Assembly: GCF_026184235.1 (NCBI RefSeq)
Contig: NZ_CP110806.1
Coordinates: 1 to 64,000 of the forward strand
Direction of reading: 5' to 3'
Origin: Cellulomonas sp. S1-8
GTDB lineage: Bacteria > Actinomycetota > Actinomycetes > Actinomycetales > Cellulomonadaceae
DNA length: 64,000 nucleotides
Shown here: positions 36,833 to 54,073 of the stretch, one piece after another
Position numbering within the stretch: the first letter of the stretch is position 1
How the letters are laid out: each line of letters opens with the position of its first letter
Made by a program: the position numbers and the translations under genes
Notes under the pieces: generated by a model
Seen by the model: the letters and a program-made list of their open reading frames with translations, nothing else
Told to the model about the DNA's origin: nothing
The model's database searches: none

Positions 36833-36915
36833 GCGCGAGTGGCGGAACGGCAGACGCGCTGGCTTCAGGTGCCAGTGTCCGAAAGGGCGTGCGGGTTCAA
36901 ATCCCGCCTCGCGCA
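36833..36915 (+). tRNA. tRNA-Leu (anticodon CAG)
   Basis: An 83-base class II tRNA. Acceptor GCGCGAG pairs with CTCGCGC, the anticodon CAG is at 36866-36868 and a variable arm (tgtccgaaagggcgt) precedes the T arm GCGGGTTCAAATCCCGC. CCA is not encoded. It marks the edge of the accessory region. Confidence 0.95.
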
Positions 36916-36924
36916 CAGGTGGGT

Positions 36925-36940
36925 GGTTCCGGAAGGAACC
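36925..36940. terminator. Short hairpin after tRNA-Leu
   Basis: A six-base-pair stem ggttcc with loop ggaa, ten bases after the tRNA. It may be a processing or pausing element. Confidence 0.4.
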
Positions 36941-36954
36941 GCTCAGGTGGTACC

Positions 36955-36990
36955 GAAACTCCCGGTCAGGGTTCTCTGGCCGGGAGTTTC
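36955..36990. terminator. Terminator for tRNA-Leu
   Basis: An 11-base-pair stem gaaactcccgg / ccgggagtttc, extended by weaker pairs, followed by gtgg. Confidence 0.7.
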
Positions 36991-37040
36991 GTGGTTCTGG
37001 GGGTGTCGGGACCGGTCTGGATGCGCTCGCGGACTTCGAG

Positions 37041-37070
37041 AAGCCCTGCCGATGGGTGTCGGCAGGGCTT
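37041..37070. terminator. Second terminator hairpin downstream of tRNA-Leu
   Basis: A 12-base-pair perfect stem aagccctgccga around a six-base loop, followed by ctgggg. It may serve the convergent remnant on the minus strand as well. Confidence 0.65.
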
Positions 37071-37184
37071 CTGGGGTCGATTCGGCGCTGTTGAGCCTGA
37101 TCGCGGGCACGCTGATGCCGACTCGGTGGTGCGGTCATGCGTCCCGGCCGGCTGCCGGGCGATCAGTCGTCGATGGTCAGGCGC

Positions 37185-37493
37185 CTACCCGCGGTACGGG
37201 CGGCGCCGGCCCTTCGTCCAGGTGTGGCGGTCCATCGGTTCGGTCGACGGTTCTTCGCCGAGCTCGACCTGCCACGGGTCCGGTTGGTGCCGGGCGAGAT
37301 GCCAGCCCCGGAGTCTCTCGATGTTGTGCGCCGCGAGCGTCACCGCCATCAGCAGCGTGGTCGCGACGAGCCCGGGCACGCGGAAGTACCCGCGGTTGAC
37401 GTCGCGGACCTGGTAGCGCAGCCGAGCGTCGAGCCCTTCGATCAGGCTGCGGCGGTTGAAGGACAGCGCCCACCGCGTGGACTGCCAGGGCAA
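37185..37493 (-). pseudogene. Probable transposase remnant (C-terminal part)
   Basis: About 100 codons resemble the C-terminal end of a DDE transposase: RRSLIEGLDARLRYQVRDV near 14-32, in which the Glu would be the third catalytic acid, and a helix VATTLLMAVTLAAHNIERLR. The TTG start has no ribosome site and the upstream sequence holds no matching N-terminal part in any frame, so the gene appears truncated. No terminal inverted repeats were found. The family assignment is tentative. Confidence 0.45.
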
Positions 37494-38989: not shown

Positions 38990-40114
38990 TCACCGCCCGT
39001 CGTCACGCCCGTGGAGGAAGAGGAACCCGTCGGCGTCGAGGTGCCCGAGGTCACCCACCGGACGGAACCCCCGCACCCCGGTGCGCGCGCCGCCAGGGGA
39101 CAGTCCGAGCCGACGCATGTGGACACGCCCGACCGCCCCCACCGGGACGCGACGGTCCTCCCGGTCGAGGATCTCCAGCCGCGTGAGAAGACCCCGCCCG
39201 ACCGTGCCGGGACGTGCGAGCCAGTCGTCTCCGCGCACGAACGTGTAGCCGTACCCCTCGGTGCTGCCGTACCACTCGTGCACCCGGTCCGCACCGAGCC
39301 CGGCGATCCACTCGCGCTTCAGGTCGTGGTCGCAGGGAAACACCCCGTGGAACAGCGACCGCAGCGTCCGCAGCGCGCCCACCGACGGTACGGCGGCCAG
39401 GGCGGCCGCCATCTGCGGGGGCGTCGTCTGCCACCACATGATGCCCTCGTCGAGCACGGCGGCGACCGCGTCCGCGCCGTCCCCGGTGCGCGTCGTCACG
39501 ATGAGGTTGCCGTCCATGAGCCCGTCGAGCAGGGCGACCAGCGGACCGGCGTGGTAGAACGGCGTCGACAGCAGCTGCCGCTGCCCCGCGACCCACCCGG
39601 TTGCGCGCAGCAGCGCGTTCGGCACGAGCTGCGACGAGTGGCGCGGGTGACGCCCCTGCGGCGCGAGCTTGGGTGTGCCCGTCGTGCCGCTCGTGCACAG
39701 GTAGTAGGCCGGCAGGTCCGTGGCCGTCGTGCGCTGACCGACCACCCCCGGGACGACGGTCGCCGCCACATCCAGCCGCGGGTGCAGCAGGACGCGGACG
39801 TCGGCACCGACCTCGGCCGCGAGCGACGGCAGGAGATCCGCCGGCGGCAGCCGCGGCGGGATGACCAGCGGGACCGCGCCTGCCCGCAGGCAGCCGAGCA
39901 GACGCGCCACGCTGTCGCCGTCGTTGCCCGTCGGGAGGATGACGACGGTGCGCCGGCCGTCTCCGTCAGCGGCCACCGAGCGGGCGGCCTCCCGCGTCGC
40001 GTCCGCCAGTTCACCGCGGGTGAGGTCGTCGACCGTCGCGTCGCCGAGGACCCGCAGCGTTACGGCACCGGGCCGCTGAGCGGCGAGCACGTCGAGCCGG
40101 CTGCAGATGTCCAC
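38990..40114 (-). CDS. AMP-binding adenylate-forming enzyme lacking the C-terminal subdomain
   Basis: Members of this superfamily activate carboxylic or amino acids as adenylates and often load them on carrier proteins. The 374-residue product has core motifs YYLCTSGTTGTPK (A3) near 137-149, YGSTEG (A5) near 288 and GDLGHLDADGFLFLHGRDD (A7-A8) near 354-372. It then ends, so the C-terminal subdomain of about 100 residues with the A10 lysine is missing. A frameshift was not evident downstream. It starts at GTG 40114 with gaggagag upstream, 14 bases after the second ligase gene. It may work with a C-terminal subdomain supplied by another protein, or be inactive. Confidence 0.8.
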   Translation of the reverse strand: MDICSRLDVLAAQRPGAVTLRVLGDATVDDLTRGELADATREAARSVAADGDGRRTVVILPTGNDGDSVARLLGCLRAGAVPLVIPPRLPPADLLPSLAAEVGADVRVLLHPRLDVAATVVPGVVGQRTTATDLPAYYLCTSGTTGTPKLAPQGRHPRHSSQLVPNALLRATGWVAGQRQLLSTPFYHAGPLVALLDGLMDGNLIVTTRTGDGADAVAAVLDEGIMWWQTTPPQMAAALAAVPSVGALRTLRSLFHGVFPCDHDLKREWIAGLGADRVHEWYGSTEGYGYTFVRGDDWLARPGTVGRGLLTRLEILDREDRRVPVGAVGRVHMRRLGLSPGGARTGVRGFRPVGDLGHLDADGFLFLHGRDDGR

Positions 40115-40128
40115 GTCTCTCCTCGATG

Positions 40129-41607
40129 CTAGGACGGCGCGGGACGCGCCGGCCCCGCGAGCGCGACGTAGTCGGTCTTGCCACTGCTGAGGCGCGGTAT
40201 CCGGGGGGTCTCACGGGCCCGCAGGAGCCCGGTCGGTATGCCGAGCCGGCGGCACACCTCGCTGTGGCGCACCGCGACCTGCTCGGCGCTCGCCCGCTCG
40301 ACGTGGACCACCGCCCGGTGACCGTCGACCGCGACGGCCGCCGTGGGGCCGAGGTCGCCGAAGAGCCGCTCGAGGTCGTCGAGCTCGACGCGCACGCCCG
40401 CGAGCTTGACGACCCGGTCGACGCGCCCGTGCACGTACAGGTACGCGTCGCGCAGCTCACCGCGGTCCGACGTCCGGAGGACCCCCCCGAGCCCGTCGGG
40501 TGCGTCGAGGTCGGCGCGGCGACTCGCGTACCCCAGCATGACCCCCGGCCCACGCACCACGACGCGACCGACGACCCCGGGTGGTGCGGGCCGCCCGTCC
40601 TCGTCCTGGATCTCCACCTGGGTTCCCGGCACCGGCACGCCGACCGACCCGGGACGCACGCGCACCTGCTCCGGCGGCAGGACGGTGACGCGCGCCGTCG
40701 CTTCGGTCATCCCGTACATCACCGCGAGGCGGCCGCCACCCGCCGCGACGACGTCGGCGGCGCGGGCCGTGTCCTCGGCGCCCAGCGCACCGCCCGCGAC
40801 CGTCACCATGCGGACCGTCGGCGTCCGCAGCAGCGCGGCACGGCTCGCCAGCAGCGAGCGCACCTGCAGGGGGACGAGGGCGACGTGTGTCGTCGCGGTG
40901 CGCTCGACACGCCGCCAGAAGGGCAGGCCGGTGGGGGACTCGTCCGACAGGAGCACAGTCCCGCCCGCGGCCAGCGTGCTGTGCAGCACCGACATGCCGT
41001 AGGTGTAGTGCAGCGGCAGCGAGGTCACCGCACGCGTGTGCTCGTCGAGGCTCAGCGCCGCGGCGATGGCGCGGGCGTTCGACTCGACCGCCTCGCGCGA
41101 GAGGCGCACGAACCGCGCGCCTCCTGTCGATCCGGACGTCGACAGCAGCAGCGACGTCCGGACGGACGTGGACGCGACGTCGGCTCGGCCTTCCGGCACC
41201 GCGCGCCGCACGACGACGGACACGCGGACCGACGGGGCGATGTCCCACGTGACCGCCGGCGTCGCGCCGTGCAGACCGACGGCTCCGACCACGTGGTCCG
41301 GGTCGAAGTCGGTGAGGTGACGCGCCAGCTCGGCGCGCGTCGTGCTCGGGGCGAGCCAGGCGACGGTGTGGCCCGACGCAAGGGCCGCGAGGTGCACGAG
41401 CACGCACGCGGGCGTGCGGTCGCCGACCACCGTGACCAGCGACCCGGGTCGACCGCGGTCGAGCCGCGCGGCGATGTCGTCGACGGCGGCCAGGACGTCC
41501 GCGTGGGTGAGCGTGGAGCCGTCGGCGAGGACGAGCGCCGGCCGGTCCGACGCGGTCATCCCGAAGAGGTCGGCGTCCGGCACTCCCTGCGCGGCACGCG
41601 TCCCCAC
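40129..41607 (-). CDS. AMP-binding adenylate-forming enzyme, full length
   Basis: The 492-residue product has an A3 motif LLSTSGSTGGARF near 165, an A5 motif MYGMTEATARV near 305, A7 near 382 (SDRGELRD), A8 GRVDRVVKLAGVRVEL near 400 and a C-terminal PRLSSGKTDY, where the Lys is the A10 catalytic residue. It therefore appears active, and resembles stand-alone acyl or aminoacyl activating enzymes. The substrate cannot be read from sequence. The GTG at 41607 follows aaggagggg. It is first in the two-gene minus-strand operon and diverges from the carrier protein gene. Confidence 0.85.
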   Translation of the reverse strand: MGTRAAQGVPDADLFGMTASDRPALVLADGSTLTHADVLAAVDDIAARLDRGRPGSLVTVVGDRTPACVLVHLAALASGHTVAWLAPSTTRAELARHLTDFDPDHVVGAVGLHGATPAVTWDIAPSVRVSVVVRRAVPEGRADVASTSVRTSLLLSTSGSTGGARFVRLSREAVESNARAIAAALSLDEHTRAVTSLPLHYTYGMSVLHSTLAAGGTVLLSDESPTGLPFWRRVERTATTHVALVPLQVRSLLASRAALLRTPTVRMVTVAGGALGAEDTARAADVVAAGGGRLAVMYGMTEATARVTVLPPEQVRVRPGSVGVPVPGTQVEIQDEDGRPAPPGVVGRVVVRGPGVMLGYASRRADLDAPDGLGGVLRTSDRGELRDAYLYVHGRVDRVVKLAGVRVELDDLERLFGDLGPTAAVAVDGHRAVVHVERASAEQVAVRHSEVCRRLGIPTGLLRARETPRIPRLSSGKTDYVALAGPARPAPS

Positions 41608-41775: not shown

Positions 41776-42324
41776 ATGCCAGAGGTTCGAGGACGCATGA
41801 CCGCCGTCACGGGTCCGGTGGCCGCCCTCGAGGACGTGGCGGCCGTGTCGCTGCTGCACGACGGCGACGACCGCGAGCTGCTGGCGGTGGCGTCCGACCG
41901 TTTCCTCAGCGGCCCGGAGTTGCGTGCGGTGGTCGCCGCGGCCGGAGTGCACCCCCCGGACCGGGTCGTCGTCGTGCCCGCGCGCTCGGCCGGTGCGCTG
42001 AACCACGTCGATGCGATCCTGGCCGACCCGGCGGCGGCCGTCTACGACTTCCGTCCGCCACGCGACGACCTCGAGCGCAGCCTCTGCGCGATCTGGCAGG
42101 AGACGCTCGAGGTCGACGCCGTCGGTGTCGAGGACGACCTGTTGGACCTCGGTGGCGACTCGATCACGGTCATGGAGATCGCGCTGCGCGTCCAGCAGCA
42201 CACCGGCGTCGAGCTCGACCTCGCGGACGTGTTCGAGGCGGGCACCGTCCGGGCCCTGGCCACCCGCGTCGCCGACCTGCGCGGGCCCGGGGCGCCCGGC
42301 GCCGACCGACCCGACCCGACCTGA
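41776..42324 (+). CDS. Peptidyl-carrier protein with adenylation C-terminal-subdomain-like N-terminus
   Basis: The 182-residue product has a C-terminal carrier domain (about 92-172) with LLDLGGDSITVMEIALR, the Ser being the phosphopantetheine site. The N-terminal 90 residues (ELRAVVAAAGVHPPDRVVVV, then PARSAGALNHVDAIL) align with the last part of an NRPS adenylation domain, where the usual NGKVD has become ALNHVD, so the A10 lysine is lost. Intriguingly, the neighbouring ligase at 38990 lacks this same subdomain. Start ATG 41776 with aggagg upstream. Carrier and enzyme are presumed cytoplasmic partners. Confidence 0.85.
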   Translation: MPEVRGRMTAVTGPVAALEDVAAVSLLHDGDDRELLAVASDRFLSGPELRAVVAAAGVHPPDRVVVVPARSAGALNHVDAILADPAAAVYDFRPPRDDLERSLCAIWQETLEVDAVGVEDDLLDLGGDSITVMEIALRVQQHTGVELDLADVFEAGTVRALATRVADLRGPGAPGADRPDPT

Positions 42325-42422: not shown

Positions 42423-43355
42423 GTGACGACCCCGGACGACACCGAGCGGTCCGGCCGGCGAGACGACCTGCGGGACGCGCTCGCGGTGACCGTGCCGGTC
42501 CCCTCGGGCCACCAGGCCTGGGTCACACGGGACGCCGCCCTGCGGACCCTGCGGTGCACGGCCGCCGACCTCGACTCCCTGCTCGCGGCCGGCCTGGCGC
42601 ACCAGGGCGGACAGGTCGAGCGGAACGACGTGTGGAACGTCGGCCTCCACGACGCGTCCAGGCGTTCGGTCCCGGCCCGCGAGATGCTCTTCTTCGACAT
42701 GATGCTGCGCTCGGAGGGCGCCGACTGGCTGTCGGCGCGGCGCTACACGGCCGTTGCGGAGGCGCGCTGCCCCCGGGGACCCGCGTGCGCCGAGCCGGTG
42801 TGGCCGCAGCCGCCGCGCTCGGGAGCGCGCTGGGAGTCGCAGACGGGTGGCCCGGGCGCGAGCCGGTGGACCGGCGATGTCGTCCTCAGCGGACGTCGGA
42901 CGACTCCGGACCCCGTGCTGGGCGAGGTCTGGGACCATCTCCTGGAGACCTACGCGTACCAGGCGACGCCGTCCTCGCTCGCGCGCGACGTCGAGCGCAC
43001 GCGTGAGCGTCGCGTCGGGGACTGCGAGGCGCTCGCGCGGCTGCTCGTCGACGACCTGCAGGCGGCCGGGCATGAGGCCCGTCTGCAGACCGGCTACTTG
43101 CTCGGCGGCGTCAGGACGCGGTGGCACTACTGGGTCCGGGTGACGGGGAGGGACGGGACGACGACCTCCCTGGACCCGTCGATGGCCGTTCTCGCGCAGC
43201 GCTTCTTCTCCCCCGAGTACGCTCGGTGGTGCTACGGGTCCGAGCTCAACCGGGTCGTGCCGCTCGTCGAGGAGGACGACTTCTGGGTCGAGCACGTCTG
43301 CGCCACCGGGTCCGCGCGCGTACCCGTCGAGCTGACGTTGCGGATCCGCCGCTGA
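42423..43355 (+). CDS. Transglutaminase-fold enzyme
   Basis: The 310-residue product has a transglutaminase-like core in the second half. Cys lies in VGDCEALARLLVDDLQAAGHEA near 199, His in RWHYWVRV near 235, and Asp in SLDPSMAVLA near 250, the Cys-His-Asp triad in canonical order. Bacterial members include proteases and, in andrimid biosynthesis, AdmF, which forms an amide bond between carrier-bound units. In this setting an amide-forming role is attractive but inferred. Start GTG 42423, 98 bases after the carrier protein, probably co-transcribed. Confidence 0.8.
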   Translation: MTTPDDTERSGRRDDLRDALAVTVPVPSGHQAWVTRDAALRTLRCTAADLDSLLAAGLAHQGGQVERNDVWNVGLHDASRRSVPAREMLFFDMMLRSEGADWLSARRYTAVAEARCPRGPACAEPVWPQPPRSGARWESQTGGPGASRWTGDVVLSGRRTTPDPVLGEVWDHLLETYAYQATPSSLARDVERTRERRVGDCEALARLLVDDLQAAGHEARLQTGYLLGGVRTRWHYWVRVTGRDGTTTSLDPSMAVLAQRFFSPEYARWCYGSELNRVVPLVEEDDFWVEHVCATGSARVPVELTLRIRR

Positions 43356-43431: not shown

Positions 43432-44562
43432 TCAGTAGGTCATGCCCATGAGGTCGCGGACGTCGTCGAGCGTGCGGTCGGCGATGTCGCGGGCGCGCTG
43501 GTTGCCGCGTGCGAGGATCGCCTGCAGGTACTCGGGACCCTGGGCGGCGGCCTCCGCGCGACGTTCGCGCATGGGACGCAGCCCCTCCACGAGGGCCTCG
43601 GTCACGACCTGCTTGAGCCGCCCGGCACCGGCCGCACCGACCTCCTCGGCGAGCGCCTCGGGCGTCGTCCCGGCGAAGTGTGCGCCGATCGTCAGGAGGT
43701 TCGCGATCTCGGGGCGACGGTCGGGCTCGTAGGTGATGTGCCGCTCGGAGTCGGTCTTGGCGCGCTTGACGAACCGGACCGTCTCCTCCTCGGTCGCACG
43801 GATCTCGAGGCCGTTGCCGGCAGACTTCGACATCTTGGCGCCGTCGTTGCCCAGGATCGTCGGAGTCGACACGATGAGGGCGTCGGGCTCCGGGAAGTAC
43901 GGCCGGTCCGGCGAGTAGCGGCTGTTGAAGCGTCGGGCGATCGCGCGGCTGATCTCCAGGTGCGGCAGCTGGTCCTGGCCCACGGGCACGAGGTTGGCCC
44001 GGCAGAACAGGATGTCCGCGGCCTGGTGCACCGGGTACGTGAACATCAGGCCCGACATGCCGCGCCGGCCACGCCGCTCGGCGTCCGCGGTCTCCGCCTT
44101 CACCGTGGGGTTGCGCTCGAGCTCGGCGACCGTGACCAGCGACAGGAAGGGCAGCATGAGCTGGTTGAGCGCCGGGACGGCGGAGTGCGTGAAGATCGTC
44201 GTGGCCTCCGGGTCGATCCCGGCGGCGAGATAGTCCAGCAGCACCTCGCGCACGACGCCGGAGAGGTCGCCGGCGACGTCGCGGTCGGTGATGACCTGGT
44301 AGTCGGCGACGATGAGGAAGATCTCGACGCCCTGCGCCTGGAGCCGCACCCGGTTCGCCAGCGTCGCGATGAGGTGCCCGAGGTGCAGGGCGCCCGTGGG
44401 ACGCTCGCCCGTGAGCACCCGGAACGGCGTCGGGTCGGCTGCGATCTGCTGCTCGAGCGCCGCGGAGCGTCGCCACGCGGCGCGGACGGACTCCGTGGAG
44501 TACACGCCGTCGATGGCGGCGGACGTGGCGGGCTCTGTGCTCAAGGCTCTGACCTTCCTCAT
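43432..44562 (-). CDS. trpS: Tryptophanyl-tRNA synthetase, bacterial type
   Basis: A class I synthetase that charges tRNA-Trp. The 376-residue product has the HIGH-equivalent in TGERPTGALHLGHL near 51-64, and KMSKS in GAKMSKSAGNG near 246. The N-terminal and loop sequence (LIVADYQVITDRD) resembles the TrpRS branch that includes Streptomyces coelicolor TrpRS1, the isozyme linked to indolmycin resistance. The open frame starts at ATG 44562, but TTG 44544 has the better ribosome site (gaagg eight bases before it) and gives 370 residues. It lies 99 bases after the kinase gene on the same strand, last in a four-gene set. Confidence 0.93.
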   Translation of the reverse strand: MRKVRALSTEPATSAAIDGVYSTESVRAAWRRSAALEQQIAADPTPFRVLTGERPTGALHLGHLIATLANRVRLQAQGVEIFLIVADYQVITDRDVAGDLSGVVREVLLDYLAAGIDPEATTIFTHSAVPALNQLMLPFLSLVTVAELERNPTVKAETADAERRGRRGMSGLMFTYPVHQAADILFCRANLVPVGQDQLPHLEISRAIARRFNSRYSPDRPYFPEPDALIVSTPTILGNDGAKMSKSAGNGLEIRATEEETVRFVKRAKTDSERHITYEPDRRPEIANLLTIGAHFAGTTPEALAEEVGAAGAGRLKQVVTEALVEGLRPMRERRAEAAAQGPEYLQAILARGNQRARDIADRTLDDVRDLMGMTY

Positions 44563-44661: not shown

Positions 44662-45684
44662 CTACCGTGCGGTGACGAGCCGCACCGCCTCCCCGATGAG
44701 AGGCGCCGCGAGCCACGGGCGCTCCGGCACGACGCGTGGGACCTCACGCAGATACAGCATCGCCGTGTGGTGCGCCAGTGCCGTGGCGTCCGCGTCCCGT
44801 CGGTGCGGGTCCGTCATGGACTCGAAGGCGGCCAGGCCGGGGGCGAGCACGTCGGCGCGGGGCGAGTCGGGGAGGTCGTAGGTCAGCTCCGCGCGGCCGG
44901 GTGCGGAGGTCCTCACGCTGCCCCGCGAGCCCTCGAGGAGCCCTTCGACCTGCCACCACCCGATGACGTGGCTGAGGAGCATCCGCCAGTCGTGGTGAGT
45001 CCCCGCCCACTCCCAGTCGACGAGGTGCCACCGGTCGTCGGGCTCGACGAGGACGTTGCGCGGTTGGGGGTCGCCCTGGCAGGTCACGTGCACGGCCGGG
45101 GCGGGGACGCCGGCGAGCCGGTCGAGCGCCGCACCGAGCGCACCGTGGTCACGTCCGTTGACGACGAGGCGTGTGTCGAGGGTGTCGCCGGGTCCGAGCC
45201 CGAGCGCGGGGAGCGCCCACTCGAGCCCCTGGACCGCACGCCGCCACCGCATCGAGTGGCTCCGCGTCGCCAGTGCCGGCGTGAAGCCGGGGACCGCGGT
45301 GGAGCGCCAGATCCGTTCGAGGTCCTCGACGACGTCGCGCCAGATGCGGACGGCCCGCGCCGGGTCGGTGGCGTGCACGTCGGCCAAGGTGGTGGCCGAG
45401 GGGCACTCGGTCACGAGGACGTCGCGCCCGCGGCGGCGGCTCGCGTGCAGCACCTGCGGCAGCCGGCCCGGGAAGTGGGGCGCGATACGGTCGCGCGCCG
45501 CGGCCTGCTGGGGGGCCGACACGCGGCCCCAGCGGGCGGACTTCACGGCACGTCGTGTGCCGCACGGGAGCGTGACGATCGTGACGACGGCGCCGGACGA
45601 CCCGGTGTCCACCATGCTGGAGATCCGGCCTGGCCCGGGTCCGCCGGTCGCCAGCACGGGCGGAGGTGTCTCGAGGACCGTCAC
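44662..45684 (-). CDS. APH-like phosphotransferase with altered catalytic motif
   Basis: The 340-residue product has the choline/aminoglycoside-kinase fold. The catalytic loop CQGDPQPRNV near 222-231 aligns with the HGDxxxxN motif but with Gln in place of the usual His, and WHLVDWEWAGTHHD near 239 carries the DxD metal site. Substrates of this family are small alcohols such as aminoglycosides, choline or homoserine. Start GTG 45684 overlaps the upstream stop as GTGA, so it is translationally coupled to the TrpRS-like gene. A role in modifying the cluster product or in self-protection is inferred. Confidence 0.75.
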   Translation of the reverse strand: MTVLETPPPVLATGGPGPGRISSMVDTGSSGAVVTIVTLPCGTRRAVKSARWGRVSAPQQAAARDRIAPHFPGRLPQVLHASRRRGRDVLVTECPSATTLADVHATDPARAVRIWRDVVEDLERIWRSTAVPGFTPALATRSHSMRWRRAVQGLEWALPALGLGPGDTLDTRLVVNGRDHGALGAALDRLAGVPAPAVHVTCQGDPQPRNVLVEPDDRWHLVDWEWAGTHHDWRMLLSHVIGWWQVEGLLEGSRGSVRTSAPGRAELTYDLPDSPRADVLAPGLAAFESMTDPHRRDADATALAHHTAMLYLREVPRVVPERPWLAAPLIGEAVRLVTAR

Positions 45685-46730
45685 GGGCGATCGCCCGACC
45701 CTGCGCCTGCGGTCGCGGGTCGTCGGCCGCCCGCGCGCAGGGACGGCGTGCCCAGGTCGACGACCGACCGTGCGACAGCCTCGACGTGGAGGGCCTTGCA
45801 CTCGCCGCACAGCAGGTCGCCCGACTGGCACGCCACGAGCGTCGCCTGCGCCTCGTCCGCGGGCCGCAGGAGCTCCACGCTCGCGAAGAGCGGGCACTGC
45901 ACCGGGTCGCCGCCGCGTGCACGCTGGTCGTCGACGTGGTCACGTCCCCCGGTGACGGCGCTGCGCACCTTGCGGCGGACGTCCGCCGGGGCGTCGTCGA
46001 GGAAGATCGTCGAGGCGGGGTCCTTGACGGAGCCGCGGCCGGTGGGCAGGCGCAGGCTGGGGAAGAGTCGCCGGTAGAGGAGCGTCGGCGTGGGCAGCCC
46101 GAGTGCCCGGCCGGCGCGCGCCAGCGCGACGCTGTGCGCGGCCTGCTTGGCGTCGACGAACACGACGTCCCGGCGGTCGGCGCGGGAAGGTGCGTGCAGG
46201 AAGGCCCCCAGCATCGTGCCCAGGTCGGTGAACACCGAGGCGGGCGTGGAGTCGTCCCAGCCGTAGACGCGGGCGAGCTTGCCGACATGGAGGACCGCCA
46301 GCGCCTCGCGTTGCGTGCGCCGGAGCGCGTCGTCGTCGTCGGGCACGACCTCCACGGAGCAGTCGGGAGCCCCGAACCACGTCAGCATGTGCTCGAACAG
46401 CCGCACGGCGCCCTGGTCGGTGTCAGGCCCGCCGAACAGGAGCACCCGCCCGTCCTCCGGGAGCGTCTGCGCGACCGACCGCGCCAGGCCGACGTGGCCG
46501 AGGTGGAACCGACGGGCAGTGAAGCCCACGCGCACATCCCCGGACGTCGGCGTCGCCGAGGGCCGCCCGTCGGGCTGCTGCCACGCCCACACCTCGGGCG
46601 TCGGCGCGCTCTGGCCCCACCCCTGGCCATGGACGACGGGCCGCAGACCGAACTGCCGGACCCGCGGCTCCTCGTCGTCGGTCGTGCCCGCGTTGAGCCG
46701 ATCGTGCCACTGCGTGATGCTCGTCAGCAC
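45681..46730 (-). CDS. Archaeal/eukaryotic-type TrpRS homologue with broken KMSKS loop
   Basis: The 349-residue protein aligns in my reading with the catalytic and C-terminal parts of archaeal/eukaryotic TrpRS. FHLGHVGLAR near 68 matches the HIGH motif. LGLPTPTLLYRRLFPSL near 218 matches the human segment before KMSAS. KDPASTIFLDDAPADVRRKV and VTGGRDHVDDQR, then GDLLCGECKAL near 318, match the human SDPNSSIFLTDTAKQIK, SGGRDTIEEHR and TGELKKAL segments. The KMSAS position reads RGSVK. Its catalytic lysine is thus altered, so normal tRNA charging is doubtful. It overlaps the nucleotidyltransferase gene by seven bases and the kinase gene by four. This is unlike the true bacterial trpS in the same operon. 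Confidence 0.75.
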   Translation of the reverse strand: MLTSITQWHDRLNAGTTDDEEPRVRQFGLRPVVHGQGWGQSAPTPEVWAWQQPDGRPSATPTSGDVRVGFTARRFHLGHVGLARSVAQTLPEDGRVLLFGGPDTDQGAVRLFEHMLTWFGAPDCSVEVVPDDDDALRRTQREALAVLHVGKLARVYGWDDSTPASVFTDLGTMLGAFLHAPSRADRRDVVFVDAKQAAHSVALARAGRALGLPTPTLLYRRLFPSLRLPTGRGSVKDPASTIFLDDAPADVRRKVRSAVTGGRDHVDDQRARGGDPVQCPLFASVELLRPADEAQATLVACQSGDLLCGECKALHVEAVARSVVDLGTPSLRAGGRRPATAGAGSGDRP

Positions 46731-47572
46731 GGGGAGCCGCCGGCGGCGACCGCGTGGAGCAGACCCAGCGCGGCGTCCCGCTCCGCGCAGCTCGCGCGGG
46801 CGTCCGCCTTGCTGAAGTACAGGTCGGGGAAGCCCGCGTCGGACCCGTGGCAGACCGCGCCGAACGCCCAGAACCGCGCCGTGCAACGGTCACGCAGGTC
46901 GACCGCGACGTCGGCGGTGCCCTCGGCGTAGCGCCACCCCCCAGGCGTCGCCCGGACGGCACCGGTGGCCGCCAGCGCACGCAGGTGCGCCTCCCGCTGG
47001 TGCGTCCACACCTGGTCGAGGAGGGCCGTGTCCCGCACGAGCCGGGCGACGTAGCTGCTGAAGTCCGGGTACAGGTCGAGGAAGGCGAGGTACGCATGGG
47101 CCAGCACCTGGTCGGCCGTCCACGGACCGCGGTGCCCTGACGCCTCGGCCTCGCGGGCACCGAGCGGACCGAGGAACCGCGCGGCGGCGGTCGCGGGCGC
47201 ACCGTCGTCGACGGGTCGGTCGGTGGTGTGGGGGCTGAACAGCTTGAGCGCGAAGTACCCGCCGAACCGGTGGTCGCGGGCGTCCGCCTCCAGGTCGTCG
47301 TGGGACAGCACGTAGACGGTCACGGGGCGGCCGTCCCAGGTGGCGTCCCGCCGGTGGGGAGCCGTGCCCGGGCGGCTGTCGTGCAGCAGCATGGCGTCGA
47401 GGTCGCTCTCGGCGCGACCGGCGCCGAGCGGCAGGCTGCCGTAGAAGACCCACCGGCGTCCGCTCGTCGGGACGTCGGCGACGGTGGGGCCGAGCGTCGC
47501 GACGATGTCGGGGATCTGCTGAGTGAACGCAGGACAGATGGCCGTGCTCACCGTGTGCATCGTGTACCCCAT
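46724..47572 (-). CDS. Nucleotidyltransferase-fold protein
   Basis: The 282-residue product has a DNA-polymerase-beta-type nucleotidyltransferase core: YGSLPLGAGRAESDLDAML near 46-64, the GS-x10-DxD pattern. A third acidic residue probably lies in the following VTVYVLSHDDLEAD strand. The family includes antibiotic nucleotidyltransferases, MNT antitoxins and small-molecule adenylyltransferases. The C-terminal 180 residues are helical and unassigned. The ATG at 47572 is first in the four-gene set with TrpRS-like, kinase and trpS genes. Its substrate is unknown. Confidence 0.75.
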   Translation of the reverse strand: MGYTMHTVSTAICPAFTQQIPDIVATLGPTVADVPTSGRRWVFYGSLPLGAGRAESDLDAMLLHDSRPGTAPHRRDATWDGRPVTVYVLSHDDLEADARDHRFGGYFALKLFSPHTTDRPVDDGAPATAAARFLGPLGAREAEASGHRGPWTADQVLAHAYLAFLDLYPDFSSYVARLVRDTALLDQVWTHQREAHLRALAATGAVRATPGGWRYAEGTADVAVDLRDRCTARFWAFGAVCHGSDAGFPDLYFSKADARASCAERDAALGLLHAVAAGGSPC

Positions 47573-47986
47573 CGTCGCCGTCCTGCTTCTCCCGGCTCGA
47601 CGCCGAGGTTCCCCGCGCGCTCGCACGGAGGACGCAGCGTAGCGGCAGCTCTTCTTTTCCGTGCGCGGCCGGTCGACCGTTCCGCAGACCCGGTGGGGCA
47701 CGTGCGCCGTACCCACGGCGAAAGTCGCGAGAACGTCCACCAGAGGTGCGGACCACCATCTGAGACAGCGCCGTGGCTGTCCGAGATGTCGGATACCGTA
47801 TCGTTAAATCAAACGGACGCAAATGGCTCGCACCGCCATTGATATCCGTCCACGGAGTCGTCGACGGATCACCATTCCGATGGCCTGCTCCGCGATGCTG
47901 CGTTCGCGTCGAGCCGTCGAATGGACGACGTGCCGCCGAGGCCGGCGCACCTCGGTTTTCTCGACCGTTCTTCCTGGAGGCGCAGC
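47573..47986. promoter_or_regulatory. Divergent promoter region between nucleotidyltransferase and P450 genes
   Basis: This 414-base gap separates two oppositely transcribed operons and contains the least GC-rich stretch of the cluster (about 47790-47830, including cgttaaatcaaacgg). No regulator gene lies next to it. I assign no hexamers. Confidence 0.4.
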
Positions 47987-48985
47987 ATGACCGCGGGTGG
48001 CCACCTCCAGGATCAGGTGCAGTCGTTCTGCCCGATCCCCCCGGGGCAGCAGACGGTGACGTCCTCCGAGGAGGCGCGCGCGGTGCTGCTCGCACCGCGG
48101 TACACCACGCGGCGTGACGTGACCTCGGTGGACCTCTACCGGGATGAGACCCTCGACGCACGCACCCGGCTCGCCTCCTTCTTCAACTCCTGGCCCATGT
48201 ACTCCGAGGGCGCGCAGCACGCCGTGCTGCGCCGGTTGACGCGGCAGATCGTCGCCGCCGGCACCGAACCCGCACTGGCCGGGGTCGAGCGGGTGCTGGC
48301 GGACGCACTGCCTCCCCTGCCGCGCACCGCCGCGGCCGACCCGTTCGACTGGGTCGCGGACGTGTCGGTACCGGTGAGCGCAGCGGTCGTCGGAGGGCTC
48401 CTCGGGCCCGTCCTGCCGCGCGTCCCGGTCAGCGAGCTCGTCGCCCTCGGTGCTGCCCTCATGCTCCAGCTGTCGAGGCTGGCACCCGGCCCCGCCACCG
48501 AGCAGGCCGCGCTCGCGGCCGGTGCGCGGCTGGCGGACATCGCCGAGCTGCACCGCGACGTGCTCGACGAGCAGCTCGAGTGCGCCGGGACGAGCAGCGA
48601 GCTCATCGGCGGTGCGCTGGCCCAGATCGTCACGGGGGCCCTCGACCCGCTGCAGGCCGCGGTCTCCTGCGTCCCGCTGCTCCCGGGGGAGAAGGCTCGT
48701 GCCGTCGTCGCGCAGGCGGCGCCTTTCAGGTTCGTCCGGCGGATCGACACGCTCGCCCCCGGCGCCGGCGGCGTCCGGGTCCCGCTCGTGTGGCCCGAGC
48801 CCGGGGCGATCCCGTTCGGCTTCGGTGCTCACCGCTGCACCGCCGCGGCACTCACCGAGCAGGTGGTCGCGCTCGTCGTCGACCGCGTCGACGCCGTCGC
48901 TCCGGACGGGCTCGTCGTCGTCAGGGGCGCGCTCGCCCCGGCCGCCTTCCTGCGATTCGAGGACCTGTGGGTCAGCCACCGGTAG
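47987..48985 (+). CDS. Cytochrome P450-like protein with atypical conserved regions
   Basis: The 332-residue product has the haem-binding loop FGFGAHRCTAAALTEQ near 285, matching FGxGxHxC with the thiolate Cys. The region before it (AQAAPFRFVRRI) lacks the usual ExxR Glu, and the I-helix AGxxT motif is not clear. It is 60-70 residues shorter than typical P450s. A few actinobacterial P450s (CYP157 family) also lack ExxR, so it may still bind haem. The ATG at 47987 follows ctggagg. It is first in the five-gene plus-strand set ending with the HAD gene. Confidence 0.75.
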   Translation: MTAGGHLQDQVQSFCPIPPGQQTVTSSEEARAVLLAPRYTTRRDVTSVDLYRDETLDARTRLASFFNSWPMYSEGAQHAVLRRLTRQIVAAGTEPALAGVERVLADALPPLPRTAAADPFDWVADVSVPVSAAVVGGLLGPVLPRVPVSELVALGAALMLQLSRLAPGPATEQAALAAGARLADIAELHRDVLDEQLECAGTSSELIGGALAQIVTGALDPLQAAVSCVPLLPGEKARAVVAQAAPFRFVRRIDTLAPGAGGVRVPLVWPEPGAIPFGFGAHRCTAAALTEQVVALVVDRVDAVAPDGLVVVRGALAPAAFLRFEDLWVSHR

Positions 48986-50202
48986 GCCGCCGCGCCGAGG
49001 CCCGGCGCGATCACGCGGCCACGGATGCGCCGCAGCCGCCCATCCTGGTCGACGGTGACGGCGCCGCCACCGACGAGACGCTGCGTCGGGCGGGTGCGGC
49101 ACTGAGGGGTCGGGTCGCACGCGGGGAGCACGTCGTGCTGGAGCAGCCGACCGCCCGGACCGTCGCGGCGGCCGTGCACGGACTCGACGGGTGGGCGGGA
49201 GTGGTCGAGCTCCTCGGAGCGGGCGACCGCAGGTCACAGAAGCCGGTGACGCCGCCCCCGGCAGGTGGCGTGGCGGCCGTGGCCGCCACGGCGTGGCGGG
49301 TCCACACGTCAGGGACGTCGGGTCGCCGGTCCTGGACCGACCACACGTGGACCACCCTGAGCGCCGGGGTGCGGCAGGGCGCGGGCGGGGGGCCACGGCG
49401 CCGGTGGGGGCTGCTCTTCCCCGCCTGCCGGATGGCGGGCCTGCAGGTGATCGCCCAGGCGCGGACGACCGGTGACGTCCTGGTCGACCCGACGCACCTC
49501 ACGAACCTCGCGGACCAGATCGCCTTCCTCGCCGAGCACGGGGTCGACGCCCTGTCGGCGACCCCGACACGGTGGCGCCAGCTCCTGCGGATGTCCGGGA
49601 CCGACCTCCTGCACCTCGCCCAGGTGACCCTCGGCGGCGAGACCGTCGATCAGCCGCTGCTGGACGCGCTGCGTGCGCGTTTCAGCGCCCGCGTCACGCA
49701 CGTGTACGCGTCGACGGAGGCGGGCAGCTGCTTCGCCGTGCACGACGGGCGTGCAGGTTTCCCCGTGGGCCGGCTCGGTGACGAGCTCCAGGTCCGCGAC
49801 GGCGTGCTCCACGTACGGGCCCCGTGGAGCATCACGGCCGGGCCGGACGGGTTCGTGTGCACGGGCGACCTCGTCACGGTCGACGGCGACCGCGCGTACT
49901 TCCGGGGCCGGCGGTCCGGTGTCCTCAACGTCGGTGGCGAGAAGGTGTCGCCCGAGGTGGTCGAGGTGGTCCTGCGCGAGCACCCCGCTGTTGTCGACGC
50001 CGTGGCCACCGGCCGGCCGAACACGTTCTGCGGCACGGTCGTCGTGGCCCGGGTCGTCCCCGTCGACGAGCAGCACCCCCCACGTCAGGGCGAGCTGCGC
50101 CGCTGGGTCGCGGAGCGGCTGACCGGCGCGCACGTGCCGGCGGTCATCGACGTCGTGCCTCACCTCACCCAGACCACGGCAGGAAAGGCGGCACGCGCAT
50201 GA
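48967..50202 (+). CDS. AMP-binding enzyme with truncated N-terminus
   Basis: The 411-residue product has an A3 motif VHTSGTSGRRS near 118, where the usual final Lys is absent, a conserved YASTEAG near 242, CTGDLV near 297, GRRSGVLNVGGEKVSPEVVE near 311-330 and a final TTAGKAARA with a lysine in A10-like position. The first 100 or so residues normally before A3 are shorter than usual. It overlaps the P450 gene by 19 bases if started at GTG 48967, the best in-frame start I can find. It ends by overlapping the SDR start (ATGA). It probably loads the ACP encoded two genes later. Confidence 0.72.
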   Translation: MGQPPVGRRAEARRDHAATDAPQPPILVDGDGAATDETLRRAGAALRGRVARGEHVVLEQPTARTVAAAVHGLDGWAGVVELLGAGDRRSQKPVTPPPAGGVAAVAATAWRVHTSGTSGRRSWTDHTWTTLSAGVRQGAGGGPRRRWGLLFPACRMAGLQVIAQARTTGDVLVDPTHLTNLADQIAFLAEHGVDALSATPTRWRQLLRMSGTDLLHLAQVTLGGETVDQPLLDALRARFSARVTHVYASTEAGSCFAVHDGRAGFPVGRLGDELQVRDGVLHVRAPWSITAGPDGFVCTGDLVTVDGDRAYFRGRRSGVLNVGGEKVSPEVVEVVLREHPAVVDAVATGRPNTFCGTVVVARVVPVDEQHPPRQGELRRWVAERLTGAHVPAVIDVVPHLTQTTAGKAARA

Positions 50203-50945
50203 GCGGGCAGCAGCGCACCACCACGGCGGAGCAGGACCGCCGCGTCATCGTGGTCACCGGCACCAGCAGCGGGCTCGGACGCGCCGTCGCGGGCCGTCTG
50301 GTGGCGGACGGCTACGTCGTCGTCGGCATCGCGCGCAGGGACGTCGAGGAGGCCGAGGTCGGGGTCGGCTACCGCCACGTCCGCGCCGACCTCGGCCGGC
50401 TCGACGCACTGCCGGCGCTCGTGCGCGAGGTCGTCGCCGAGCACGGCGCGCCCTACGGGCTGGTGAACAACGCGGCCGGTGCGGTCGCCGGGGTGCTGCC
50501 CAACCTCACCGACGACCAGGTGCGCCACGCCGTCGAGCTGGACCTGCTGTCTCCTCTGCTTCTCACCAAGCACCTGGTGCGTCCGATGATCTCGCGCGGG
50601 GTGGGCAGGATCGTCAACGTCTCGTCGATCGTCGCCGAGAGCGGGTTCCGGGGACTGTCGGTGTACGGCGCCGCGAAGGCGGGCCTGGTGGGCTTCACGC
50701 GTTCGCTCGCTCGCGACGTCGGCGCACGGGGCGTCACCGTCAACGCGGTCGCACCCGGGTTCCTCGACACCGCGATGACGGGGACGATGGACGACGACAC
50801 CGTGCAACGGGTCCGCAACCGGAGCCCGCTCAAGAGGTTCGCGACGGTCGACGAGGTGGGTGCCGCGGTCGCCTACCTGCTGTCGGACGGTGCGGCCGGT
50901 GTGACCGGCACCGTTCTCACCGTCGATGCGGGGTCGACGGCATGA
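50199..50945 (+). CDS. SDR family ketoreductase-type oxidoreductase
   Basis: The 248-residue short-chain dehydrogenase has the cofactor motif TGTSSGLGRAVA near 21-32, NNAAG near 89, the catalytic Ser in VNVSS near 140 and YGAAK with Tyr and Lys near 156. It resembles FabG, which reduces 3-ketoacyl-ACP. With an ACP gene directly downstream (four-base overlap), reduction of an ACP-bound ketone is likely but inferred. Start ATG 50199. Confidence 0.88.
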   Translation: MSGQQRTTTAEQDRRVIVVTGTSSGLGRAVAGRLVADGYVVVGIARRDVEEAEVGVGYRHVRADLGRLDALPALVREVVAEHGAPYGLVNNAAGAVAGVLPNLTDDQVRHAVELDLLSPLLLTKHLVRPMISRGVGRIVNVSSIVAESGFRGLSVYGAAKAGLVGFTRSLARDVGARGVTVNAVAPGFLDTAMTGTMDDDTVQRVRNRSPLKRFATVDEVGAAVAYLLSDGAAGVTGTVLTVDAGSTA

Positions 50946-51004
50946 CGCCGACGACCACCCCCACCAGCCGCGCGTCGAGCGCGGGAACCACCAAGGAGAG
51001 ACTC

Positions 51005-51268
51005 GTGTCGGACACGCAAGATGTGCGGGCAGCGGTCGTCGGCGTGCTGGAGGCGCTGCTGATCGAGGACGGGGTGGAGCACCCGGAGCTCACGGACGAC
51101 GTCGACCTGAGCGACGTCGGCCTCGACAGCCTCGGGTTCGCGGTCCTCATCACACGTCTCGAGGACGAGCTGGACCGCAACCCGTTCGTCACGATCGAGG
51201 GCGTCGAGGCGCCGCGCACCGTCGGGTCGCTCGTCGCGCTCTACCAGCCGGGCCACGCGCCGGCGTGA
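51005..51268 (+). CDS. Acyl carrier protein
   Basis: The 87-residue product is a four-helix carrier with DVGLDSLGFAVLI near 39-51, the Ser being the phosphopantetheine site. I prefer GTG 51005, which has aaggag seven bases upstream. The frame extends upstream to an ATG at 50942 that overlaps the SDR stop; the 21 extra residues are Thr/Ser-rich. It is flanked by the SDR and HAD genes. No phosphopantetheinyl transferase gene lies in the window, so activation must come from elsewhere. Confidence 0.85.
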   Translation: MSDTQDVRAAVVGVLEALLIEDGVEHPELTDDVDLSDVGLDSLGFAVLITRLEDELDRNPFVTIEGVEAPRTVGSLVALYQPGHAPA

Positions 51269-52131
51269 CGGACCGTCGCGGCGGCGTCCTGCCCACGACG
51301 GCTCGGGTGTCACGGTCGGCAGAGGGCGTGCCCCGGACCGCCGGACCGACCCTCGTCGCCCTCGACATCGACGGCACGATCGCCGACGACGCCGGGACGA
51401 TCAGCCGCGGCGTCGTGGCCGCCGTCCGCACCGCGCAGGCCGTGGGGCACCACGTGGTGCTCGCGACCGGCCGGTCGCTGGTCGGTCTCGCACCGGTCCT
51501 GCGGCAGCTCGACAGTGCGGACGGCTGGGCCGTCATGTCGAACGGCGCGCTGCTGGTGCGGGTCGGCGGCGGCGGACCCGTCGGGTACCGGGTGGAGGCG
51601 GCGCGGCTGTTCGACCCGTGCGCCGTCGTCACCCGTGCCGTGGAGCTCGTGCCCGAGGTGGCGGTCGGCGCGGAGGAGGTGGGTTCCGGGTGGCGGTTCT
51701 CGCGTCCTCTCCCGACGAGGCCGCCGCGGGGCACATTGCGCTGGGCGTCCCTCGTGGAGCTGCGCACGACCCCCGCCACCAAGGTCGCGCTGGTCGCGCC
51801 CGGGATCGGCCGCTTCGTCGACGTGCTGGCCGCGACCGGCGCGACCGTGACGACGGTCGGCCAGGACTGGCTCGACGTCGTCGGGCCCGGGGTCTCCAAG
51901 GCCGCCGCCCTGGAAGACCTCCGGTGTCGCCTGGGGGTGCCGCTCGCCGCGACGCTCGCCGTCGGCAACGGGAGCAACGACGTCGCGATGCTGTGCTGGG
52001 CCGCTCGGTCCTACGCGACCGCGGATGCACCCTCGGCCGTGCGGGCCGCGGCGAGCGACGTGTGCGCTGCGGTGGCGGACGACGGTGTCGTCGACGTGCT
52101 GCGCTCGCTCGACGACCCTGCACGGCGCTGA
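51265..52131 (+). CDS. HAD-superfamily hydrolase, Cof type
   Basis: The 288-residue product has the nucleophile motif ALDIDGTIADD near 32-42, LATGRS (motif II-like), a conserved Lys in the segment before GVSK and GNGSNDVAML near 231-240. Cof-type phosphatases act on small phosphorylated metabolites. Here it may remove a phosphate from a biosynthetic intermediate, perhaps one added by the APH-like kinase; this is inference. It starts at GTG 51265, overlapping the ACP stop as GTGA, and ends 37 bases before the convergent ABC gene. Confidence 0.85.
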   Translation: MTDRRGGVLPTTARVSRSAEGVPRTAGPTLVALDIDGTIADDAGTISRGVVAAVRTAQAVGHHVVLATGRSLVGLAPVLRQLDSADGWAVMSNGALLVRVGGGGPVGYRVEAARLFDPCAVVTRAVELVPEVAVGAEEVGSGWRFSRPLPTRPPRGTLRWASLVELRTTPATKVALVAPGIGRFVDVLAATGATVTTVGQDWLDVVGPGVSKAAALEDLRCRLGVPLAATLAVGNGSNDVAMLCWAARSYATADAPSAVRAAASDVCAAVADDGVVDVLRSLDDPARR

Positions 52132-52168: not shown

Positions 52169-54073
52169 TCACGACGAGACGGACGAGCTCAGCAGCACGC
52201 GGTACCGGCCCTCCTGCTCCGCCAGCTCCTCGTGACGGCCGGCCTGCACGATCCGACCGGCCTCGAGCACCACGATCCGGTCCGCCTGCCGGACCGTCGA
52301 CAGCCGGTGGGCGATCATGAGGATCCCCGCCCCGGCGAACAGCTGATCCATCGCCGCACGCACGTGTGCCTCCGTGGCCGTGTCGAGGTGGGCGGTCGGC
52401 TCGTCGAGCACGACGAAGGCCGGGCGCTTGAGGGCTGCCCGGGCGATGGCGATCCGCTGCCGCTCACCGCCCGAGAGGCGGTGGCCCTTCTCGCCGATCA
52501 CCGAGTCGAGGCCGTCGTCCAGCTGCGCGACGAGCTCGTCGAGGGCGACCGCCCGGCACACGTCGAGCAGCTCGCTGTCCGTGGCGTCGGGGTTCGCGTA
52601 CCGGAGGTTGTCACGGACGCTCGCGTGGAGCACGTACGGCTCCTGCGGGATGTACGCGATGAGCGCGGCACGCTGCTGCTCGTCGAGGGACTGGATCGCG
52701 TTGCCGGCGATCTCGACGGTGCCCTCGTCGCAGTCGAGCAGACCGGCGGCGATGCCCGCGAGCGTCGACTTGCCGGCACCGGAGGAGCCGACGATCGCGA
52801 CGACCTCCCCCCGATCGACCGTCAGGTCGATGCCGTCGAGCGCGTCGGTGCGTGCGGCGCCGGGCCGGGCGTCCGCCGTGGGGCCGCGGTCGTCCCCGCC
52901 GAGGCCGGTGATCGGCAGGAAGGAGATGGACAGCGCGTCCCCGGCGTGGGAGAGGCCCTCGATGGAGTACGAGGACACCGGGGGGTACCGGTACCGCGTG
53001 CCACGCATGCGCAGAGCGGGCGCCGGCTGTCCCGCACGCGGCTGCTCGGTGGGCGTCGTGCCGGCCGGCCGTGCGGCAGGGGTGTCGCCGGAACCTGCGG
53101 CGAGGACGGCCTCGACGCGGTCGAGCGCGATCGTCGACCGCATCCTGGGGTAGCGCGTGCCGAGCAGGCTCTGCACCGGGGCCTGCAGCTGCTGGAGGTA
53201 CAGCACGATGAGGATGACGCTGCCGACCGTGACGTTCTGCTCGGCCACGAGCCACACCCCCATGGCGAGGGCTCCGGCGGTGATGACGACGAAGGCGGCA
53301 CCGTAGCTGGCGCCCGACGTCGCCGCGGCCTTCGCGGTGGCCGCGGTCAGCCCGGCGAGCTCGCGCGTCTTCTCCTCGAAGTGGCGCTGCTCGCGCTCCG
53401 TCTGCCCGTTCTGGCGGGCGAGGACGGCCCCGTCCCGGCTCACGAACGTCTCTGCGGACGACGCGAGGTCCTTCGTGACGTCGAACGACCGCGCGATGAG
53501 CTGGTTGATCCGTGCCTCCGCGCGGCGCACGTAGGCGATGGCGACCGGGATGACGACGAGCAGCACCAGGAGCCGCGGGTCGACGAGCGCGACGATGACC
53601 ACCGAGGCGACGATGGTCGTCACGCCCGAGACGACGACGGGGACGACGGACGTGTACATGGCCTCGGCGCCGTTGGCGTCACTGGTCAGGCGGCTGACGA
53701 TCGCCCCCGGCCGGACCGTCGTGTAGAACTGGATCGGCATGGTCGTCAGGCGGCGGAACATCGACGACTGCATGTCTGCGATGACCTCGCCGGCCGCCCG
53801 GGTCGAGACGACCCGCGCCGCGTAGGTCATCCATACGCCGAGTAGACCGAGGCCGAGCATCCCGGCGATCTGCCAGGCGACGTCGCTGCCGGTGGTCCTG
53901 TCCTGGACGAGCCCGTCGATGACCGACCGCAGCAGGAGGACCTGGACCAGCGGGGCGACGCCACCGATCACCTGGCAGACGTACGAGACCGTGAACCGTC
54001 TGCGGTGGGCGCGGACCAGCTGCCGGACGTTCGCGTGCCGGGCGGGGTCTTCGACGGTGCTCCGCCGGCTCAC
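52169..54073 (-). CDS. ABC transporter, fused membrane and ATPase domains
   Basis: The 634-residue half-transporter has an N-terminal six-helix membrane domain (about 30-320) and a C-terminal ATPase with Walker A GSSGAGKST near 440, signature LSGGERQR near 543 and Walker B FVVLDEPT near 564. It belongs to the exporter type, presumably a homodimer that exports the cluster product. The start is uncertain: GTG 54073 overlaps the stop of a 20-codon open frame with a strong ribosome site (ATG 54132). The ABC gene may be translated by coupling to it. Confidence 0.92.
   Translation of the reverse strand: MSRRSTVEDPARHANVRQLVRAHRRRFTVSYVCQVIGGVAPLVQVLLLRSVIDGLVQDRTTGSDVAWQIAGMLGLGLLGVWMTYAARVVSTRAAGEVIADMQSSMFRRLTTMPIQFYTTVRPGAIVSRLTSDANGAEAMYTSVVPVVVSGVTTIVASVVIVALVDPRLLVLLVVIPVAIAYVRRAEARINQLIARSFDVTKDLASSAETFVSRDGAVLARQNGQTEREQRHFEEKTRELAGLTAATAKAAATSGASYGAAFVVITAGALAMGVWLVAEQNVTVGSVILIVLYLQQLQAPVQSLLGTRYPRMRSTIALDRVEAVLAAGSGDTPAARPAGTTPTEQPRAGQPAPALRMRGTRYRYPPVSSYSIEGLSHAGDALSISFLPITGLGGDDRGPTADARPGAARTDALDGIDLTVDRGEVVAIVGSSGAGKSTLAGIAAGLLDCDEGTVEIAGNAIQSLDEQQRAALIAYIPQEPYVLHASVRDNLRYANPDATDSELLDVCRAVALDELVAQLDDGLDSVIGEKGHRLSGGERQRIAIARAALKRPAFVVLDEPTAHLDTATEAHVRAAMDQLFAGAGILMIAHRLSTVRQADRIVVLEAGRIVQAGRHEELAEQEGRYRVLLSSSVSS

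Follow-up and report, generated by a model that had tools for sequence, protein, structure and literature searches.

A tryptophanyl-tRNA synthetase-like protein family with a replaced KMSKS loop, encoded beside an intact tryptophanyl-tRNA synthetase in a candidate biosynthetic module

The DNA analyzed here (the window) is a stretch of 64,000 nucleotides of Cellulomonas sp. S1-8 (NZ_CP110806.1, positions 1 to 64,000). Its 36.9–59.2-kb region begins at a tRNA-Leu gene, varies among relatives, and encodes the proteins listed in Table 1 together with an enoyl-reductase-like protein and a nitronate-monooxygenase-like protein. We read this region as a biosynthetic cluster with a four-gene module set inside it, which consists of genes for a nucleotidyltransferase (NTase), a tryptophanyl-tRNA synthetase (TrpRS)-like protein, a kinase and an intact TrpRS. 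In the relative G003, an orthologue (67%) of the gene at 59252 lies approximately 5.5 kb after the tRNA gene; no such orthologue was found within the 15 kb read in G008 and G014. Behind the tRNA-Leu gene, the stretch 36833–37493 holds a remnant of 102 codons that shares 92% identity with a portion of the 534-aa protein encoded at the same place in G008. The tRNA-Leu site resembles a hot spot of integration; a search of the window for another copy of the tRNA-Leu end, as an attachment site, found none. A Matrixin-type metalloprotease (Pfam M10, 2.7e-5) is encoded at the edge of the cluster (37606–38721, plus strand). A further ORF (47921–48985, plus strand) was judged P450-like by eye (FGFGAHRC), had no Pfam match at E 0.01 and may be degenerate.

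Table 1. Features of the module and its surroundings (window positions)
Feature	Position	Strand	Remarks
tRNA-Leu (CAG)	36833..36916	+	start of variable region with cluster
AMP-binding ligase	38990..40114	-	
AMP-binding ligase	40129..41559	-	start inferred
Carrier protein (PP-binding)	41776..42324	+	
Transglutaminase-core protein	42423..43355	+	
Intact bacterial-type TrpRS	43432..44562	-	376 aa; HLGH; KMSKS at 43822-43836; TIGR00233
APH-like small-molecule kinase	44662..45684	-	TGSSGA loop, AVK, CQGDPQPRN and VDWEW motifs
TrpRS-like protein	45681..46730	-	349 aa; archaeal/eukaryotic TrpRS fold; without aminotransferase domain
KMSKS slot of TrpRS-like protein, RGSVK	46023..46037	-	residues 232-236
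HIGH motif of TrpRS-like protein, HLGH	46494..46505	-	residues 76-79
Putative polymerase-beta-type NTase	46724..47572	-	motif GS-x9-SDLD at 47396-47440; 46-55% identity to relatives
AMP-binding ligase with C-terminal domain	48967..50202	+	
SDR / ketoreductase	50199..50945	+	
Carrier protein (PP-binding)	50942..51268	+	
HAD hydrolase	51328..52131	+	Pfam Hydrolase_3; different Pfam family from HAD_2 of outside modules
ABC exporter	52169..54073	-	
Condensation-like protein	54508..56433	+	just below Pfam cut-off

A sequence-only reading of this DNA had described the TrpRS-like protein as a homologue of archaeal/eukaryotic TrpRS that keeps the HIGH region and the C-terminal third and reads RGSVK at the KMSAS position. 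These observations were confirmed. The protein has the TrpRS fold across its full length, C-terminal domain included; its structural relatives in the PDB are the archaeal/eukaryotic TrpRSs 3a04, 3jxe and 2quj; and the C-terminal GGR and CGECK segments are present. Assignment to another Rossmann family was rejected, as the VIA list contained TrpRS and then TyrRS. The scores against synthetase models fell below the cut-offs, with 77.9 bits for the TrpRS equivalog model (cut-off, 478) and 19.1 for Pfam (cut-off, 21.1). A cyclodipeptide synthase was also considered and rejected (no CDPS Pfam match; tRNA-synt_1b was the only match at E up to 1), as was anti-phage defence (PADLOC models matched none of six proteins at E up to 0.01). 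The earlier reading overlooked the intact TrpRS gene, the aminotransferase fusion in relatives and the gene order shared by outside loci, all described below.

The altered loop is a property of the family. In all 21 aligned members, the first position of the KMSKS slot is R, never K, and the third is S or T; the fifth is R, K or H in 20 members, the exception being P0003 with RMSAG. HLGH is found in 16 of the 17 aligned members with letters at HIGH (P0018 has HAGH), and D193 and Q196, which form a D-x-x-Q motif, are kept in all 20 members with letters there. HAGH is also read in the L075 fusion, which lies outside the family alignment. The retention of the R-x-S/T-x-basic slot, HLGH and D193/Q196 across the family therefore indicates a conserved replacement and not decay. 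In eukaryotic TrpRS, a strand tyrosine contacts the indole (extracts of PMC12135181). The equivalent residue is Phe in 15 of 16 family members, a substitution that is only suggestive because the N-terminal half, in which it lies, aligns weakly. In summary, the family resembles archaeal/eukaryotic TrpRS in fold, HIGH motif and C-terminal segments, but differs from it in the loop, in being usually fused to an aminotransferase and, by this weak alignment, in a Tyr-to-Phe change.

One protein search detected at least two members in addition to the window protein, P0002 and P0003, and a second, with residues 1–345 of the W. vitaminophila fusion as the query, detected at least 19 proteins. All 19 that were listed carry a fused aminotransferase domain (PF00155, taken from precomputed Pfam domains); they originate from Streptomyces, Myceligenerans, Streptomonospora, Actinoplanes and metagenomes, and those bearing a source name are annotated as aminotransferases. 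The closest PDB relative of the aminotransferase part is HisC (3cq5, 2.9e-25). Only two of the members found are not fused, the window protein and P0003 (365 residues); the latter is an aminotransferase by its source name, yet Pfam gives tRNA-synt_1b alone. The reading frames of family members are open, and they match the window protein at 37–53% identity. Because its closest aligned relative, P0020 from Myceligenerans (53%), is fused, the window lineage has probably lost the aminotransferase domain. No displaced copy of this domain was found in the window (E 1e-3), and a close copy elsewhere in the window genome was likewise rejected, since the best of five matches showed 35% identity. Plasmid carriage was rejected as well: none of the 99 records that matched covered more than 80% of the query, and in the ten records listed the match was to the aminotransferase part. 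The family is rare. The window genome is the sole match among 58 relatives and among 221 same-family genomes, and the 392 genomes examined in the G062 genus included two with a member, as did the 394 same-class genomes, the window genome being one of the latter two; these samples overlap.

The DNA context was read for the window and for all four outside loci obtained from genome searches, namely L034 (S. gossypii, corresponding to P0014), L035 (W. vitaminophila), L064 (G632) and L075 (G877); other family members are known as proteins. All four outside loci carry, on the same strand, genes for a HAD protein, the NTase, the TrpRS-like::aminotransferase fusion, TrpRS, the kinase and a luciferase-like oxidoreductase, and in L035 and L064 the last is followed by a gene for a TylF-type methyltransferase. 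The NTase, TrpRS-like protein, kinase and TrpRS occur together in five of five loci, window included, and the TrpRS is of the bacterial type in each. The window order is NTase, TrpRS-like, kinase and TrpRS, the last two being swapped relative to the outside loci. Since the window encodes no homologue (E 1e-3) of the HAD_2, aminotransferase or luciferase-like parts of the outside modules, its pathway either differs from theirs or is decaying; the methyltransferase is likewise without a homologue there.

Among four NTase members, one reached Pfam NTP_transf_2 (E 0.0017) and the window member had no Pfam match; its predicted model had a pLDDT of 54.9, and no related PDB chain was found. Of the 392 genomes of the G062 genus, two (G357 and G379) encode a relative of this NTase but lack the module, a pattern equally in keeping with a detoxifying role for this protein. 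These module-free relatives lie at L086:5984–6838 and L087:5458–6312, and the SDLD motif is lost in L087 (G357). The kinase keeps its loop, lysine and catalytic motifs, with weak model scores (APH 3' 5.8e-4, far under the cut-off; for the L035 kinase, Pfam APH 1e-4, sub-threshold) and no PDB match.

The intact TrpRS is encoded two genes downstream of the TrpRS-like gene, at the end of the window operon, and its TIGR00233 score of 229 bits exceeds the cut-off of 176.75. A tree was built from 20 TrpRS sequences, with the L075 TrpRS and the G006 TrpRS2 (L044; not called as a gene) left out. With 100/100 support, this tree set one group apart from all other sequences: the window TrpRS, the module TrpRSs of three outside loci and six second TrpRSs (TrpRS2) of the same genus. 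Within this group, the window TrpRS nests among the TrpRS2 sequences of its own genus (99/99, seven rows), and the module TrpRSs of L034, L035 and L064 form a separate sub-clade. Because the module enzymes fall into two sub-clades, the window and outside lineages appear to have acquired their spare TrpRS independently, as would be expected if a second TrpRS were needed. The six same-genus TrpRS2 sequences (L042, L043, L045, L046, L047 and L048) are 58–64% identical to the window TrpRS over the aligned part. Genes resembling purF and purM lie near five of these six called genes and near the uncalled G006 TrpRS2 (the neighbour names purF, purM and gyrA are our assignments by eye). As no module gene was seen beside the six genes, a TrpRS of this clade by itself proves no product. 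At the position that we take to be relevant to indolmycin (H43), the window TrpRS has Q, whereas the housekeeping TrpRS and the L034, L035 and L064 enzymes have H; there is thus no common resistance signature at this position, and none was identified elsewhere among the module TrpRSs in the tree. The module TrpRS of G877 (L075:11545–12588) has KASKS instead of KMSKS. A third type of TrpRS, with KMGKT for KMSKS, occurs in three same-genus genomes (L049, L050 and L051), where no module gene was seen adjacent to it.

Of the three PF00579 matches in the window genome, one was read as a TyrRS, one is the cluster TrpRS and the third is a remnant of 71 positions. The remnant (L057:6532–7056; G000:C1:1256531–1257055) is a deleted housekeeping TrpRS, which corresponds to residues 1–83 and 261–351 of the G003 TrpRS with 85.5% and 80% identity, respectively. 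The deletion is in frame, covers 531 bp (177 codons) and has a 4-base shared sequence, ACCT, at its junction. The genes flanking the remnant agree with those in the five relatives used for comparison, showing that the site is syntenic. Two or more PF00579 genes are present in 38 of the 39 other same-genus genomes, the exception being G013, which is 89% complete; the housekeeping loci of five genomes were read (L052–L056) and the others were counted from the match table. An assembly fault is an unlikely source of the deletion. Apart from the cluster TrpRS, no full-length TrpRS was found in the window genome and, given that the catalytic core of the housekeeping enzyme is deleted and relatives keep theirs, the strain most likely relies on the cluster enzyme for translation.

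AlaRS is a class II synthetase, and the TrpRS-like protein belongs to class Ic. In the ascamycin cluster, the AlaRS-like AcmF is missing most of the residues that activate ATP and alanine, yet it uses Ala-tRNA to attach alanine to a nucleoside sulfamate; AcmD supplies the Ala-tRNA and also shows greater resistance to the product (extracts of PMC12945691). The present module resembles this arrangement in placing a degenerate synthetase-like protein and a spare synthetase for the same amino acid in one cluster; as there described, however, AcmF is truncated and uses Ala-tRNA, and it is not homologous to the TrpRS-like protein, which is usually fused to an aminotransferase. In SB-203208, the isoleucine transferase SbzA, a cluster IleRS that is also called a self-resistance protein, has AMSKA for KMSKS (extracts of PMC12945691); it shares the altered loop, but it is one protein for both jobs, which the window module divides between two. 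Agrocin 84 holds a stable leucyl-adenylate analogue, and its genes include agnA, a truncated, biosynthetic AsnRS homologue, and agnB2, an immune LeuRS (extracts of PMC4392301 and PMC7916415). The pairing of a synthetase-derived biosynthetic enzyme with an immune synthetase is alike, but the synthetase families are others and the extracts mention no set of NTase, APH and HisC-type enzymes. For indolmycin, tryptophan transamination is reportedly involved, to judge from the title of a cited paper. It is an early step in the chuangxinmycin (cxn) pathway (extracts of PMC12087186 and PMC6804068), and the cxn cluster was found via the potential resistance gene trpRS (PMC12087186). In the indolmycin producer, a second TrpRS, which is resistant, is encoded at another site of the genome, and indolmycin and chuangxinmycin are the natural TrpRS inhibitors named (extracts of PMC12087186 and PMC6804068). 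These systems, likened here by description, share with the module TrpRS as the target, a proposed one in the case of the module, and, for cxn, a clustered trpRS, but the extracts describe no TrpRS-like biosynthetic enzyme.

Like synthetase-like natural-product enzymes, the TrpRS-like family has an altered activation signature and an extra synthetase clustered with it (five of five loci); as expected of a self-resistance TrpRS, the cluster TrpRS of the window and of three outside loci comes from a clade apart from the housekeeping enzymes. The sequence-only reading knew of no described system with this combination. That holds for the family, in that open-licence PMC searches, with hits checked in part, gave no description of the synthetase family, the fusion, the replacement loop, the module or the replaced housekeeping gene. 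It does not hold for the general design, a degenerate synthetase-like enzyme with a spare synthetase in one cluster, which is documented for ascamycin and agrocin 84. The same reading had proposed a non-translational use of tryptophanyl-adenylate chemistry. An altered TrpRS relative in a non-translational context is supported by the fold, the family-wide RGSVR-type slot, the usual aminotransferase fusion and the co-conserved small-molecule enzymes; the tryptophanyl-adenylate part is conjectural, and the residue at the indole-contacting position is Phe by a weak alignment.

We assign a probability of about one half to the reading in which the module makes a TrpRS-directed compound, with the TrpRS-like protein as a biosynthetic enzyme and the intact TrpRS as an insensitive copy of the target. 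The operon would then act as a transferable module for the synthesis of a TrpRS-attacking compound, a stable mimic of the aminoacyl-adenylate or nucleotide type being the most likely kind. The nucleotide site of the TrpRS-like protein (HLGH and the R-x-S/T-x-basic loop) may bind a nucleotide-like acceptor or adenylate, and the protein may join an amino-acid-like group to this acceptor, by analogy with the unrelated AcmF, SbzA and AgnA. The phosphate part would be built or capped by the kinase and NTase, and in the outside loci the amino part would be prepared by the fused HisC-type aminotransferase, the HAD protein and the luciferase-like oxidoreductase. A HisC-type aminotransferase and a HAD protein resemble the histidinol-phosphate steps and, because of this resemblance, we speculate that the product might be a stable adenylate mimic formed when the NTase caps an amino alcohol. 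The spare TrpRS could protect the producer as an insensitive target copy and, in the window genome, would have replaced the housekeeping TrpRS with its deleted catalytic core. Human TrpRS is 91-fold lower on B. subtilis tRNA-Trp, and bacterial/eukaryotic cross-charging is poor (extracts of PMC12135181), which argues against the use of Trp-tRNA by an archaeal/eukaryotic-type enzyme such as this one, which should be a poor match for a bacterial tRNA-Trp.

APH-type kinases and NTases (ANT) are classical antibiotic-modifying enzymes, and the operon might instead be an immunity cassette in which these two inactivate a TrpRS inhibitor, the TrpRS-like protein sequesters it and the intact TrpRS replaces the target, biosynthesis being left to the neighbouring AMP-ligase and carrier genes or to another organism. 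The module-free NTase genes and the lack of aminotransferase, HAD_2 and luciferase-like parts in the window agree with this explanation. We nevertheless consider it unlikely, since the aminotransferase, HAD and luciferase-like proteins of the outside loci, with the TylF-type methyltransferase in two of four, would be superfluous for immunity. The surroundings of the window module, with two carriers, three AMP ligases and a transglutaminase-core protein within 8 kb, would also suit a TrpRS-like amino acid:carrier ligase that loads a carrier of the surrounding assembly line; SerRS-like ligases offer a precedent, and carrier-charging, synthetase-type ligases that add Ser are listed in extracts of PMC9437257. 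Against this, three AMP ligases are already present in the window and no carrier was recognized by eye among the genes of the four outside loci, and we judge the carrier-ligase explanation quite unlikely.

A pseudoenzyme, decaying or purely structural or regulatory and kept by fused or neighbouring enzymes, would account for the changed KMSKS lysine, the Phe for the indole-contacting Tyr (by weak alignment) and the missing aminotransferase of the window copy. However, the frames are open, and the loop, HLGH and D-x-x-Q are conserved among members as diverged as 37–53% identity, which indicates that the site itself is kept; this explanation thus also appears quite unlikely, if a shade less so than the carrier ligase. 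Finally, the whole TrpRS fold with its C-terminal domain could suggest an archaeal-type TrpRS that serves translation with a dedicated tRNA. A search for a tRNA-Trp gene beside the module gave none in the window, L034, L035, L064 or L075 and, with the altered KMSKS, the aminotransferase fusion and a bacterial-type TrpRS alongside in every locus, such a role is very improbable.

We prefer the reading of a biosynthetic module with a self-resistance TrpRS. Its most specific form, in which a new TrpRS-derived, RGSVR-loop enzyme family fused to a HisC-type enzyme makes an adenylate-type anti-TrpRS antibiotic and one host, having lost its own TrpRS, translates all of its Trp codons with the self-resistance TrpRS, is tentative and perhaps doubtful. 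The window strain is a naturally occurring example of what seems to be the replacement of an essential housekeeping gene by a cluster-borne synthetase, and the small module points to a TrpRS-directed compound. If this is true, TrpRS would be added to the synthetases that have been put to use as natural-product enzymes, here with a conserved loop in place of KMSKS.
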